Below, in pieces: positions 48,738-53,564 of a DNA stretch of 64,000 nucleotides. Where the stretch lies: contig NZ_RKQK01000005.1 in NCBI RefSeq assembly GCF_003814915.1, positions 124,001 to 188,000 on the forward strand, given 5' to 3'. The translations under genes and the position numbers were made by a program. Positions within the stretch are counted from its first letter, which is position 1; every line of letters starts with the position of its first letter. This DNA is from Pacificibacter maritimus (GTDB lineage: Bacteria > Pseudomonadota > Alphaproteobacteria > Rhodobacterales > Rhodobacteraceae). Under the pieces are notes generated by a model. The model ran no database searches and was not told the DNA's origin. It was given only the letters and a program-made list of their open reading frames with translations.

Positions 48738-49916
<1,179 letters not shown>

Positions 49917-50114: not shown

Positions 50115-50783
50115 ATGCCTTTTCTGAATCCAAATACACGTCACCCTATCCGATTACCCGATGGCAGCGGCTACAAAAACACTGTCTGGTTAAAATCTGT
50201 CATCGACCATCCGCAAATTGATGTAGGTGACTTCACCTATTATAATGATTTTGAGACCGTCACCGACTATGCTGCGCGCATAGCGCCTTACTTGCATCAA
50301 GGTGCACCAGAGCGATTAATCATCGGCAAGTTTGGCCAATTCGCTCATGGAACCCGTTTTATCACCGATAGTGCCAATCATGCGCGCGATTGGTTTACGA
50401 CCTATCCGTTTGGCGTTTTTAACACTGATGTTATGCCCTTCTTTGCACAGGAATACTTCGAGAACCGTCGAAACACGGTGATCGGCCACGATGTTTGGAT
50501 CGGCCACGATGCAAAGATTATGCCTGGCGTCACTGTCGGGAGCGGCGCAATTGTTGGGGCAGGGGCGGTTGTCGTCAAAGATGTGCCTGATTTTGCGGTT
50601 GTGGCGGGAAATCCTGCGACGCTCGTAAGGATGCGCTTCGACCAGCCCATTATCGAGGCGTTACTTGCGCTTGAATGGTGGCATATGACGCTCGAACAGA
50701 TTCGCGCTTTGATGCCTGTCTTAGCTTCTGCCGACCTTGCTGGGTTACATCGGGCCTTGGCTAAAAAGCAGAATGGGCAATAG
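50115..50783 (+). CDS. CatB-type hexapeptide acetyltransferase
   Basis: 222 residues with a left-handed beta-helix: NTVIGHDVWIGHDAKIMPGV and GSGAIVGAGAVVVKDVPDFA are hexapeptide repeats, and the loop with HARDWFTTYPF is typical of the xenobiotic acetyltransferases (CatB/Vat group). It would acetylate a hydroxyl of a small molecule; drug resistance cannot be claimed from sequence. It lies between tuf and tRNA-Trp, where core genes are expected, so it looks like an accessory insertion. Confidence 0.87.
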   Translation: MPFLNPNTRHPIRLPDGSGYKNTVWLKSVIDHPQIDVGDFTYYNDFETVTDYAARIAPYLHQGAPERLIIGKFGQFAHGTRFITDSANHARDWFTTYPFGVFNTDVMPFFAQEYFENRRNTVIGHDVWIGHDAKIMPGVTVGSGAIVGAGAVVVKDVPDFAVVAGNPATLVRMRFDQPIIEALLALEWWHMTLEQIRALMPVLASADLAGLHRALAKKQNGQ

Positions 50784-50814
50784 TCACGTCATCTCACTGA
50801 AATTAACTGGCTGT

Positions 50815-50841
50815 CCGTGGTTTTATGCTTGCAAACCACGG
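50815..50841 (+). other. Hairpin after the acetyltransferase gene
   Basis: CCGTGGTTT and AAACCACGG form a perfect nine-base stem with a nine-base loop; the sequence after it is T-poor at first (GCGGCTTTCG). It may slow or end transcription from the acetyltransferase gene, and overlaps the -35 box proposed for the tRNA. Confidence 0.5.
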
Positions 50842-50857
50842 GCGGCTTTCGTATTTC
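50829..50857 (+). promoter_or_regulatory. Possible promoter of tRNA-Trp
   Basis: TTGCAA (50829-50834), 17 bases, TATTTC (50852-50857), 11 bases before the tRNA. The -10 box is weak. Confidence 0.35.
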
Positions 50858-50868
50858 ATGCGCCTAGT

Positions 50869-50944
50869 AGGGGTATAGCTCAGTTGGTAGAGCGACGGTC
50901 TCCAAAACCGTAGGCCCACAGTTCGAGTCTGTGTGCCCCTGCCA
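50869..50944 (+). tRNA. tRNA-Trp (anticodon CCA)
   Basis: A complete cloverleaf of 76 bases including the encoded CCA end. Acceptor AGGGGTA pairs with TGCCCCT; D arm GCTC...GAGC; anticodon loop CTCCAAA with CCA; T arm with GTTCGAGTC. Its place just before secE is the usual one. Confidence 0.97.
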
Positions 50945-51069
50945 TTTCCCAATGTGCCAAGGATGTGACACCGTTTCACAGCACTTGTTGGCTATGGGGT
51001 TGAATTAGGCAGCGTGCTGGCGTACACGCCCTTCACGATATCGATTACGATCCACAGTCAGGAAAAGAC

Positions 51070-51267
51070 ATGGCCAAGGCAAACCCACTTCTGTTTATCC
51101 AGCAAGTTCGTGCAGAAGCATCGAAAATCGTTTGGCCAGCGCGCCGCGAAGTTGTTTTGACAACGGTGATGGTCTTCATCATGGCCGCTTTGACTGCGAC
51201 ATTCTTTTTTGTTGTCGATCTTGGTATTCGCAGCGGCCTAGCCGCACTGCTTGATTTCGTAGGCTAA
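51070..51267 (+). CDS. secE: Preprotein translocase subunit SecE
   Basis: 65 residues with the SecE core FIQQVRAEASKIVWPARRE and a single membrane helix (TVMVFIMAALTATFFFVV). It clamps SecY in the Sec channel. Normally nusG follows closely; here 534 bases separate them. Confidence 0.95.
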   Translation: MAKANPLLFIQQVRAEASKIVWPARREVVLTTVMVFIMAALTATFFFVVDLGIRSGLAALLDFVG

Positions 51268-51303
51268 ATTCTAAGTGCATGTTGTGGCCCAATAGGGTGC
51301 ATC

Positions 51304-51585
51304 GTGGCTGAACAATTTTCAAAATTTAGACGACGCTGAGATCGAGTTGATCCCGCGAGGGCACATTTTTTCAGTGCGTCCGCTGCCGAAGGCACTCGGA
51401 TTAATCTCACGCGACGGTCCACCGACATGCTGCGCGTCACAAGTCGCAACGAAGTTTTGTTTCTCGATTTTATTGGATCAAGCAATGAGGCCGCTGCGCA
51501 TTTCATTGTCGATGGTCGGCTGACGACAATGCTCTGCGCTTTTACGCAACGGCGCGGACTGTTTGTCGATAGGGTTGAATGTTGA
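51304..51585 (+). pseudogene. Frameshifted, truncated remnant of a pyridoxamine-phosphate-oxidase-family gene
   Basis: The secE-nusG spacer encodes pieces of one protein in three frames: VAEQFSKF from 51304, LDDAEIELIPRGHIF from about 51326, and from about 51364 HFFSASAAEGTRINLTRR, later LFLDFIGSSNEAAAHF and MLCAFTQRRG. The segments TRINLT, IGSSNEAAAH and MLCAF match the conserved blocks of the general PPOX (flavin-binding split-barrel) family. Two frameshifts and a lost C-terminus show it is dead. Stop at 51583-51585. Confidence 0.75.
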
Positions 51586-51801
51586 AAATATGCTGTAAAA
51601 GTCCAACCAAACTTGGGTGTTGCGGCGTGTAAGCACTTGAACTTATGGACGTGGCACGGTAATTGCAGCGCATTCCACTGAGCTGGCGTGCATCGATTCG
51701 TGTTGTGCGCCGATTTTCTGTTTAGGGAAAAGGCACATAAGTGTTTAGGAAATAACGATATCTGGCAGGAATGCTGGAGTGATTGAAAAGGCAAGAGCAT
51801 C
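51586..51801. other. Spacer before nusG
   Basis: 216 bases after the PPOX-family remnant. I see no gene, tRNA or clear hairpin. It probably holds the remaining remnant and the nusG leader; the ribosome site before the nusG ATG is weak (GGCAAGAGCATC). Confidence 0.4.
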
Positions 51802-52338
51802 ATGGCTAAGCGTTGGTATTCGGTAAGCGTTCTCTCGAACTTCGAGAAAAAGATTGCCGAAGCGATCAAAGTTGCTGTGGTCGAAAAGGGCCTAGAGGAT
51901 CAAATCGAAGAAGTTTTGGTCCCCACAGAAGAAGTCATTGAAGTGCGCCGCGGTAAAAAAGTGACCGCAGAGCGCCGGTTCATGCCAGGTTATGTGTTGA
52001 TCCGCATGGAGATGACTGACGAAGGTTACCATCTTGTGAATTCAATCAATCGCGTCACTGGTTTCTTGGGCTCTTTTGGGCGCCCTGTTCCAATGCGTGA
52101 CGCCGAAGTCGAGGCCATCATGGGGCGCGCAGAAGAAACCAGCGCAGAAGCGCCACGGTCGACCATCACCTTTGAAGTGGGTGAACAGGTGTCCGTTGCC
52201 GAAGGGGCCTTTGAAGGGTTCGACGGCATGGTTGAAGAGGTTGATGAAGAAGCGCAGCGTTTGAAAGTTGCTGTTTCTATCTTTGGCCGCGCAACGCCGG
52301 TCGATTTGGAATTCGGTCAGGTTAACAAACAAGCTTGA
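51802..52338 (+). CDS. nusG: Transcription termination/antitermination protein NusG
   Basis: 178 residues: RWYSVSVLSNFEKKIAEAI begins the NGN domain, with FMPGYVLIRMEMTDE and FLGSFGRPVPM, and the C-terminal KOW domain (GEQVSVAEGAFEGFDGMVEE). It binds RNA polymerase and links to Rho or the ribosome. It is followed 102 bases later by rplK. Confidence 0.97.
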   Translation: MAKRWYSVSVLSNFEKKIAEAIKVAVVEKGLEDQIEEVLVPTEEVIEVRRGKKVTAERRFMPGYVLIRMEMTDEGYHLVNSINRVTGFLGSFGRPVPMRDAEVEAIMGRAEETSAEAPRSTITFEVGEQVSVAEGAFEGFDGMVEEVDEEAQRLKVAVSIFGRATPVDLEFGQVNKQA

Positions 52339-52440
52339 TCGATACTGAGTGGGAGGTAAGGGCATCGCGATGTCCAAACCCGACCACGCAACATTAGTCG
52401 CCGCAGGACGCGTTCTGTGGCAGTTGAAAAGGAAAATACA

Positions 52441-52866
52441 ATGGCTAAGAAGCTCGCAGGTACAATGAAACTGCAAGTGCCAGCAGGCAAAGCGAACCCG
52501 TCCCCACCCGTGGGTCCGGCGCTTGGTCAGCGCGGCATTAATATTATGGAATTCTGTAAGGCGTTTAACGCAAAAACGCAGGATCTTGAGTCAGGCGCAC
52601 CGTGCCCGACTGTGATCACTTACTACGCTGACAAGTCTTTCACTATGGACATCAAGACGCCTCCAGCGTCTTACTTCCTCAAGAAAGCTGCAAAACTCTC
52701 TTCAGGTGCAAAATTGCCCGGTCGTGAAGTTGTCGGTTCCGTTTCTGTTGCTCAGGTGAAAGAAATCGCCGAAGCAAAAATGAAAGACCTGAACGCAAAC
52801 GACCTAGATGCTGCTGTGCAGATCATCTTGGGTTCCGCGCGCTCCATGGGCATCGAGGTGAAGTAA
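52441..52866 (+). CDS. rplK: 50S ribosomal protein L11
   Basis: 141 residues from the ATG at 52441 ([20 protein letters not shown]), with [20 protein letters not shown]. It builds the GTPase-associated centre and is needed for stringent signalling. The frame is open slightly further up, but the canonical L11 start is at 52441. The stop shares a base with the rplA ATG (TAATG). Confidence 0.98.
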
Positions 52867-53564
52867 TGGCTAAACTCGGTAAACGTACAGTTGCGGCACG
52901 CGAAGCATTCGCAGGCCAAGAAAACATCACTGTTGAAAACGCTGTAGCATTGGTGAAAACCAACGCGACTGCAAAATTCGACGAGACTGTTGAAATCGCT
53001 TTGAACCTTGGTGTTGACCCGCGTCACGCTGACCAAATGGTTCGTGGTGTTGTGTCTTTGCCAAATGGCACAGGCAAAACAGTACGCGTTGCGGTTTTCG
53101 CACGTGGCCCTAAAGCTGAAGAAGCGACAGCTGCTGGTGCAGACATCGTTGGCGCAGAAGACTTGATGGAAACCATTCAGAGCGGCAAGATCGAATTTGA
53201 TCGTTGTATCGCGACACCTGACATGATGCCTATCGTTGGTCGTTTGGGTAAAGTGCTTGGTCCACGTAACCTTATGCCAAACCCAAAAGTTGGCACTGTG
53301 ACTATGGACGTGAAAGCGGCCGTTGAAGCAGCTAAAGGTGGCGAAGTTCAGTTCAAAGCTGAAAAAGGTGGTGTTGTGCACGCTGGTGTTGGTAAAGCAT
53401 CCTTCTCTGAAGCGCAGCTTGCTGAAAATATTCGTGCATTTGTTGAGGCCGTTCAAAAAGCGCGCCCATCAGGCACCAAAGGCACATACATGAAAAAAGT
53501 TTCCTTGGCGTCCACGATGGGCCCAGGTGTTTCTGTTAGCATCGATAGCGCAACAGGCAACTAA
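52866..53564 (+). CDS. rplA: 50S ribosomal protein L1
   Basis: 232 residues starting [15 protein letters not shown], with the RNA-binding [19 protein letters not shown]-like block [18 protein letters not shown]1 forms the stalk by the E site and in many bacteria represses its own operon. A terminator follows. Confidence 0.98.

Follow-up and report, generated by a model that had tools for sequence, protein, structure and literature searches.

Results

A disrupted gene lies between secE and nusG

The window, i.e. the whole 64,000-nt stretch that was analyzed (positions 124,001 to 188,000 of contig NZ_RKQK01000005.1), comes from the 3.08-Mb genome of Pacificibacter maritimus (family Rhodobacteraceae). 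The locus considered here carries, in this order, tuf, an acetyltransferase-like open reading frame (ORF), tRNA-Trp, secE, a gap, nusG, rplK and rplA. The gene at 48738-49916, which we take to be tuf, as well as the presumptive rplK and rplA, were named from their translations, and the 222-aa ORF between tuf and tRNA-Trp (50115-50783) presumably encodes a protein resembling hexapeptide-repeat acetyltransferases. Homologues of this ORF were found, at varying positions, in 14 of the 80 named nusG loci. The tRNA-Trp gene (50869-50944) is followed on the plus strand by secE (51070-51267, 65 aa; Pfam PF00584 SecE, E=1e-16) and, after a distance of 534 bp, by nusG (51802-52338, 178 aa; Pfam PF02357 NusG, E=3.6e-26), also on the plus strand.

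Translation of the gap confirmed that it holds pieces of a flavin-binding split-barrel protein, as proposed in a sequence-only reading of the same DNA. The pieces indeed belong to one protein; however, six-frame translation placed them in two frames of one strand rather than in the three frames claimed. The remnant occupies positions 51304-51598, and its true end thus lies 13 bases beyond the previously given position 51585. It consists of four pieces on the plus strand and contains an in-frame stop. Piece 1 (51304-51318, frame A) opens with a GTG start codon and reads MAEQF, in alignment with the MAEQF start of the corresponding genes in three related genomes, G008, G009 and G010. Piece 2, recognized by translation and DNA alignment, reads QNLDDAEIELIPRGHIF in frame B (51320-51370). 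Piece 3 returns to frame A and represents the main N-terminal half (AHFFSASAAEGTRINL...LCAF, 51361 to about 51549-51552), and piece 4, again in frame B, is the C-terminal tail DCLSIGLNVENML with its stop codon (51557-51598).

When the intact 186-aa orthologue from G008 was searched against the window genome, the only match at E<=0.001 was the remnant (E=1.1e-21; residues 2-80 aligned at 62% identity, with one TGA inside); no second copy was found in this search. At the DNA level, the alignment with G008, G009 and G010 extends from the start codon to the 3' end of the gene, interrupted by a single large gap within the gene and by a few gaps of one base: the remnant tracks the intact gene to about residue 80 and picks up again over the last dozen codons. 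Because the genome contains this single match and the alignment spans the gene from its start codon to its 3' end, the similarity is not due to chance. In DNA, the first part of the remnant is 67-69% identical to the sister genes, and identity over the 176-178 bp immediately preceding nusG is 84% with G008 and 87% with G010.

We considered whether a sequencing or assembly error might have broken an intact gene. The frame changes do sit near short runs of T or A, where single-base errors are common in draft assemblies. However, compared with the three sisters, the spacer lacks 264-266 bp (534 bp versus 798, 800 and 800 bp), a net loss that is largely accounted for by the one internal gap and cannot be produced by base errors. 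Moreover, the substitutions in the retained part fall at all codon positions, which is not error-like, and the assembly comprises 8 contigs with 99.94% completeness. An artefact is therefore very unlikely.

Intact orthologues at the same junction

The comparison of this spacer in close relatives, suggested in the sequence-only reading, did reveal an intact gene. Among 19 sampled congeners, each species being represented by one genome, 10 carry an intact co-directional ORF of 185-199 aa between secE and nusG, which bears out the proposal that the locus formerly held a complete gene, which subsequently decayed. These include all three sister species (G008, G009 and G010, around Pacificibacter marinus), with which the rpoB tree groups the window genome. 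In the relatives, the intact gene begins about 35 bp past secE on the same strand. The junction genes are of two types, one found in four genomes near G008 and the other in six genomes at 50-55% identity to G008.

The remaining congeners display other states of the locus. In one of them, G007 (L005), a 345-bp spacer contains a second, differently decayed remnant with the N-terminal sequence MPGVFDTITDPL..., which a local BLASTN search aligned with the region of the intact gene in G019 at 63% identity over 177 bp. In the other eight, BLASTN recovered no trace of the coding part save for bits near the 3' end and the leader. One genome in which the gene was not detected, G016, is nonetheless nested among gene-bearing species in the rpoB tree. 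As a side observation, rpoB of G018 (L220/L221) consists of two overlapping pieces with stops within the first, possibly as a result of an assembly frame error.

To place the gene in a broader context, we compiled 108 nusG loci, which extend at most 1.5-2.5 kb on each side and of which eight repeat others. PPOX matches were present in 3 of these 108 loci, all three from the same genus, and no junction PPOX gene was found outside the genus in this set. PPOX homologues located anywhere in the genome are more widespread (59/198 family genomes, the window's own included). A set of 43 PPOX proteins was reduced to a 39-row alignment by removal of three near-duplicates and one further row. The two junction types form a clade with a support of 60, and in other genera two homologues away from this junction show similar identity to that of the second junction type (52-54% versus 50-55%). 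Since the support for monophyly is only 60, a single insertion is the simplest, albeit weakly supported, reading and not the sole one. In another genus, a PPOX homologue (G048:C1:2382012-2382538) is also in two separate pieces and is perhaps broken.

Relaxed constraint and loss of function

The dS values between the remnant and its relatives were saturated, and substitutions were thus compared by codon position. Relative to the three sisters where these agree, the window carries 10, 6 and 15 changes at the first, second and third positions, respectively, whereas positions that vary between the intact sisters number 8, 1 and 35 (Fisher p=0.0065; the test covers just 61 codons and has modest power). 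In the rpoB control, the window's private changes are distributed as 10, 3 and 155. From these contrasts, we conclude that purifying selection was relaxed at the remnant and not at rpoB. The remnant also lacks residues ~81 to ~172 of the intact protein, a stretch that includes 11 of the 25 positions that are invariant in the 39 intact homologues. Four further invariant residues are substituted in what is retained: Q19, P37 and T63 (G008 numbering) in the N-terminal piece 3 and T178 in the C-terminal piece 4.

Could what is left still be useful, either as a short protein made from the longest piece or as a product of programmed frameshifting? The remnant does contain a 52-aa ATG-led ORF (51427-51585) and retains about 70% amino acid identity to G008 (43/61 codons). 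Against any such use speak the loss of the internal stretch with its invariant positions, the spread of substitutions over the codon positions and the occurrence of the short form in 0/19 congeners, in which the gene is intact, undetected or reduced to a different remnant. We give this idea hardly any credence. Given that about 70% identity is kept over 61 codons, either the decay is young or constraint was long-lasting. The remnant thus combines the hallmarks of a pseudogene, namely an intact orthologue at the locus, a disrupted frame with loss of an essential part, and relaxed constraint.

The ancestral gene encoded a putative flavin enzyme

The family assignment derives from the intact orthologues and not from the window fragment: the window copy, unlike the proteins of PF01243, is broken and itself without a Pfam match, and its 74-aa piece alone matched neither Pfam nor NCBIfam. 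All 39 of the 39 intact homologues matched PNPOx_N (PF01243) at E<=1e-3, with a best value of 9.5e-14; the G008 protein alone scored 24.6 bits, below the curated cut-off of 28.1. Although a sequence search against solved structures returned no match, an AlphaFold2 model of the G008 orthologue (pLDDT 91.8) yielded top Foldseek matches with a probability of 1.00 and best TM-scores, normalized by target, of 0.7-0.8. The best of these are mostly FMN, FAD or F420 split-barrel proteins, together with heme-related members of the same fold; the predicted fold resembles those of the putative pyridoxamine 5'-phosphate oxidase 2htd and of HupZ. Judging from profile and model, the ancestor is a member of the PNPOx-like FMN-binding split-barrel family and a putative flavin enzyme.

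The secE-nusG gap is wide across the family

The sequence-only reading had assumed that secE and nusG usually lie nearly side by side. This does not apply to the Rhodobacteraceae, in which secE was found in 103 of the 108 loci, with gap lengths of 132-1982 bp (median 205 bp; 103 lengths, with six genomes counted twice). In other families of the class, the gap was 4-29 bp in the five genomes measured. In other genera of the family, the gap accommodates diverse genes. On the opposite strand, these encode aminoglycoside 3-N-acetyltransferase-like (Antibiotic_NAT), NAD-dependent epimerase-like and, by weak similarity, glycosyltransferase-like proteins; a weakly methyltransferase-like gene is co-directional with secE and nusG, and one ORF has no Pfam match. 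Thus, the secE-nusG gap is a recurrent parking place for genes. The loci with unrelated opposite-strand genes are L118/L079, L121, L141, L142, L172 and L162.

A promoter-like element and a hairpin precede nusG

Neither a simple sigma-70 scan nor a simple terminator scan of the window called the two elements described below, and comparative alignment was therefore needed. We aligned 118 distinct upstream regions of nusG from the family, many of which are related and hence not independent. This family comparison revealed a promoter-like element on the plus strand of the window (51637-51665), with TTGAAC at 51637-51642 and TAATTG at 51660-51665 separated by 17 bp; the window's -10 hexamer is less typical than those of the family. 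The combination of TTG and TA at a hexamer spacing of 17 was present in 115/118 leaders, whereas spacings of 14-16 and 18-20 gave 2-11. The more stringent TTGA/TA pair was found in 105/118 leaders, whereas 200 base shuffles gave 0.8 on average and never more than 4.

Downstream of this element lies a terminator-like hairpin with a T-rich tail (51682-51723, plus strand; stem-loop 51685-51711), whose start is located 23-27 nt past the first -10 base in 105/118 leaders. The covariance model R1 scored the window site at 47.1 bits (E=3.2e-12), compared with 18.5 for the next best site in the window, the window's copy being part of the set from which the model was built. For the hairpin alignment, 107 of the 118 rows were retained (102 distinct sequences) after dropping L095, which was too short, nine same-genus near-duplicates and L171. 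Although the alignment was not structure-fitted, the structure itself was read from it. In these rows, 91.2% of the stem cells are paired, 8 of the 10 pairs changed on both sides, and all five measures exceeded those of 500/500 shuffles. With the register shifted by 1-3 columns, no more than 57.6% of the cells paired and the covariation score dropped from 0.243 to 0.114 or less; with a shift of -2, two measures surpassed the true register (33 versus 22 both-side changes and 25 versus 23 further pair types).

The hairpin has the properties of an intrinsic terminator at the level of the family. At least 5 T in 8 positions follow it in 112/118 leaders, and its folding energy is -10 kcal/mol or lower in 100/107 sequences, with a median of -17.8 kcal/mol. 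The window copy is weaker than the family, its T run being interrupted. Compared with dinucleotide shuffles, folding of the leader was unexceptional, both in the window (z of -1.32 and -0.85) and in two relatives (-1.58 and -1.55). Plain terminators usually have no conserved loop. Here, the loop reads GA(T/A)TC in 91/107 sequences (74 GATTC and 17 GAATC), a possible contact for a protein or an RNA. A candidate antiterminator, an upstream GGGCGC segment with the potential to pair with the 3' arm, was recognized in Celeribacter-type leaders and not throughout the family rows inspected, and this candidate was dropped. A search of positions 50700-52900 against Rfam 15 at E<=1 gave no match in the leader, with only the tRNA (50869-50941) and a sub-threshold snoR109 (50775-50865) being reported. 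No description of the nusG leader was found in the literature at the level of titles and abstract openings.

At E<=1e-4, the model matched 139 of 198 family genomes, at least 33 of which had contributed to building it, and had no match in the other 59. Among the matches for which nusG positions were listed, a list that favours more conserved NusG proteins, 124/127 lie 33-105 nt upstream of nusG on the same strand. For an independent check, we used the best-scoring new loci (L252-L280), 18 of 29 of which share no more than 86% identity with any locus used for training; all 18 of these have the model match just upstream of nusG. Two genomes outside the training set, G090 and G238, likewise have matches (55.8 and 43 bits) adjoining nusG. 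A class-wide occurrence of the hairpin was also considered and rejected: 47/190 genomes gave matches at E<=0.01, but of 30 loci only three, from the same family, had nusG nearby, and the matches beyond these three scored at most 29.5 bits and look like generic terminators.

Of 8 distinct loci in which a foreign gene occupies the gap, 6 retain the hairpin (L118, identical to L079, and L121, L128, L141, L142 and L162), and it was not found at E<=0.1 in the other two, L101 and L172; more generally, the promoter-hairpin arrangement is mostly also present when other genes lie in the gap. The sequence-only reading had held that the insertion forces nusG to rely on readthrough or on a promoter of its own. 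This claim could not be sustained, because the promoter-like element and the hairpin are present with or without the PPOX gene. Since the arrangement occurs whether or not this gene is present, and mostly even where the gap houses different genes, it is very probably older than the PPOX insertion.

How nusG is likely to be transcribed

In one alternative, nusG would lack a promoter of its own and be read from tRNA-Trp/secE, with the hairpin serving as the terminator of the upstream unit or as a processing site. The co-direction of secE and nusG, the shortness of the gap and the T-rich tail of the hairpin are all compatible with this explanation. However, it does not account for the conserved -35/-10-like pair at a constant spacing upstream of the hairpin, nor for the opposite-strand genes that occupy the gap in several genera. 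Furthermore, no well conserved block was seen in the family alignment from the hairpin to nusG; this rest of the leader (51724-51801, plus strand) is poorly conserved across the family and has Shine-Dalgarno-like bases near the ATG. On balance, readthrough as the sole source of nusG transcripts appears improbable.

Somewhat more weight, though still clearly a minority share, goes to the possibility that the unit is chiefly a gene for a trans-acting small RNA of about 50 nt with the conserved GA(T/A)TC loop, flanked by promoter and terminator, with nusG transcribed as a by-product or from a separate start. The loop is better conserved than the 5' segment (mean column identity 0.88 versus 0.51), and UpsM, a leader-derived RNA from the same family, has a proposed function in trans according to the excerpted text of PMC5089854. 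Conversely, a free-standing small RNA gene need not keep so fixed a place before nusG, and just ~12-13 nt precede the hairpin.

We consider it likely that a complete split-barrel gene decayed near-neutrally at this locus and that nusG is transcribed from its own promoter with early attenuation. Under this scheme, an ancestor would have carried the complete PPOX gene between secE and nusG, transcribed together with secE and located upstream of the promoter of nusG. Because of this upstream position, loss of the gene would have been close to neutral for nusG, which was probably left unaffected. Transcription of nusG would start from the element at 51637-51665, about 12-13 nt before the hairpin; some transcripts would stop at the T-rich tail, giving rise to a short RNA of ~50 nt, and the remaining ones would continue into nusG. 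With a promoter upstream of the hairpin and, at the family level, an intrinsic terminator, both recognized computationally, we infer that the nusG leader is an early attenuator or a short leader RNA.

Discussion

The remnant represents a clean case of ongoing gene loss inside a highly conserved chromosomal region, and a single genus displays the intact, the twice-decayed and the undetected states of the PPOX gene. The remnant itself is ordinary, and the more interesting part is the conserved nusG leader, in which a covarying promoter-hairpin module precedes nusG in most of the sampled family members. If the module is attenuating, it would provide a point of feedback or tuning for NusG, a near-universal elongation factor. 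Rhodobacter, Ruegeria and Dinoroseobacter are genetic models within the Rhodobacteraceae.

More tentatively, in much of the Rhodobacteraceae NusG (or NusA or Rho) might set the NusG level by altering early termination in the leader, where a sigma-70-type promoter would be followed within about 12-13 transcribed nucleotides by the conserved terminator. The PPOX gene and other genes in the gap could come and go because the leader module would free nusG from the transcription of secE. NusG of Bacillus subtilis is an intrinsic termination factor (PMC8060035), and neither autoregulation nor secE was found when the text of that paper was searched.

The remnant resembles known bacterial pseudogenes, which likewise show frame changes, a stop codon, internal loss and a relaxed codon-position pattern, and differs from ordinary ones only by its place in the tuf/tRNA-Trp-secE-nusG-rplK region. 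The nusG leader, as far as sequence comparison can tell, appears strikingly like two described leaders, those of greA/GraL and mraZ/UpsM. UpsM also comes from the Rhodobacteraceae and, according to the excerpted text of PMC5089854, derives from a conserved mraZ leader; its intrinsic terminator lies 84 nt ahead of the first gene, and that gene has no start site of its own. It differs in length, UpsM comprising 206 nt before mraZ (PMC5089854), whereas the nusG leader RNA would be ~50 nt. In the Escherichia coli greA leader, as described in excerpts of PMC6829880, a promoter is followed after 19 nt by an intrinsic terminator, producing GraL RNAs of 37-59 nt; about two thirds of the transcripts stop there and the rest read into greA. 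Thus, in greA and, by prediction, in nusG, a promoter and, closely downstream of it, a terminator precede the gene of an elongation factor; the greA/GraL arrangement, including feedback by GreA, was shown by experiment (PMC6829880), whereas the nusG arrangement is a computational prediction.
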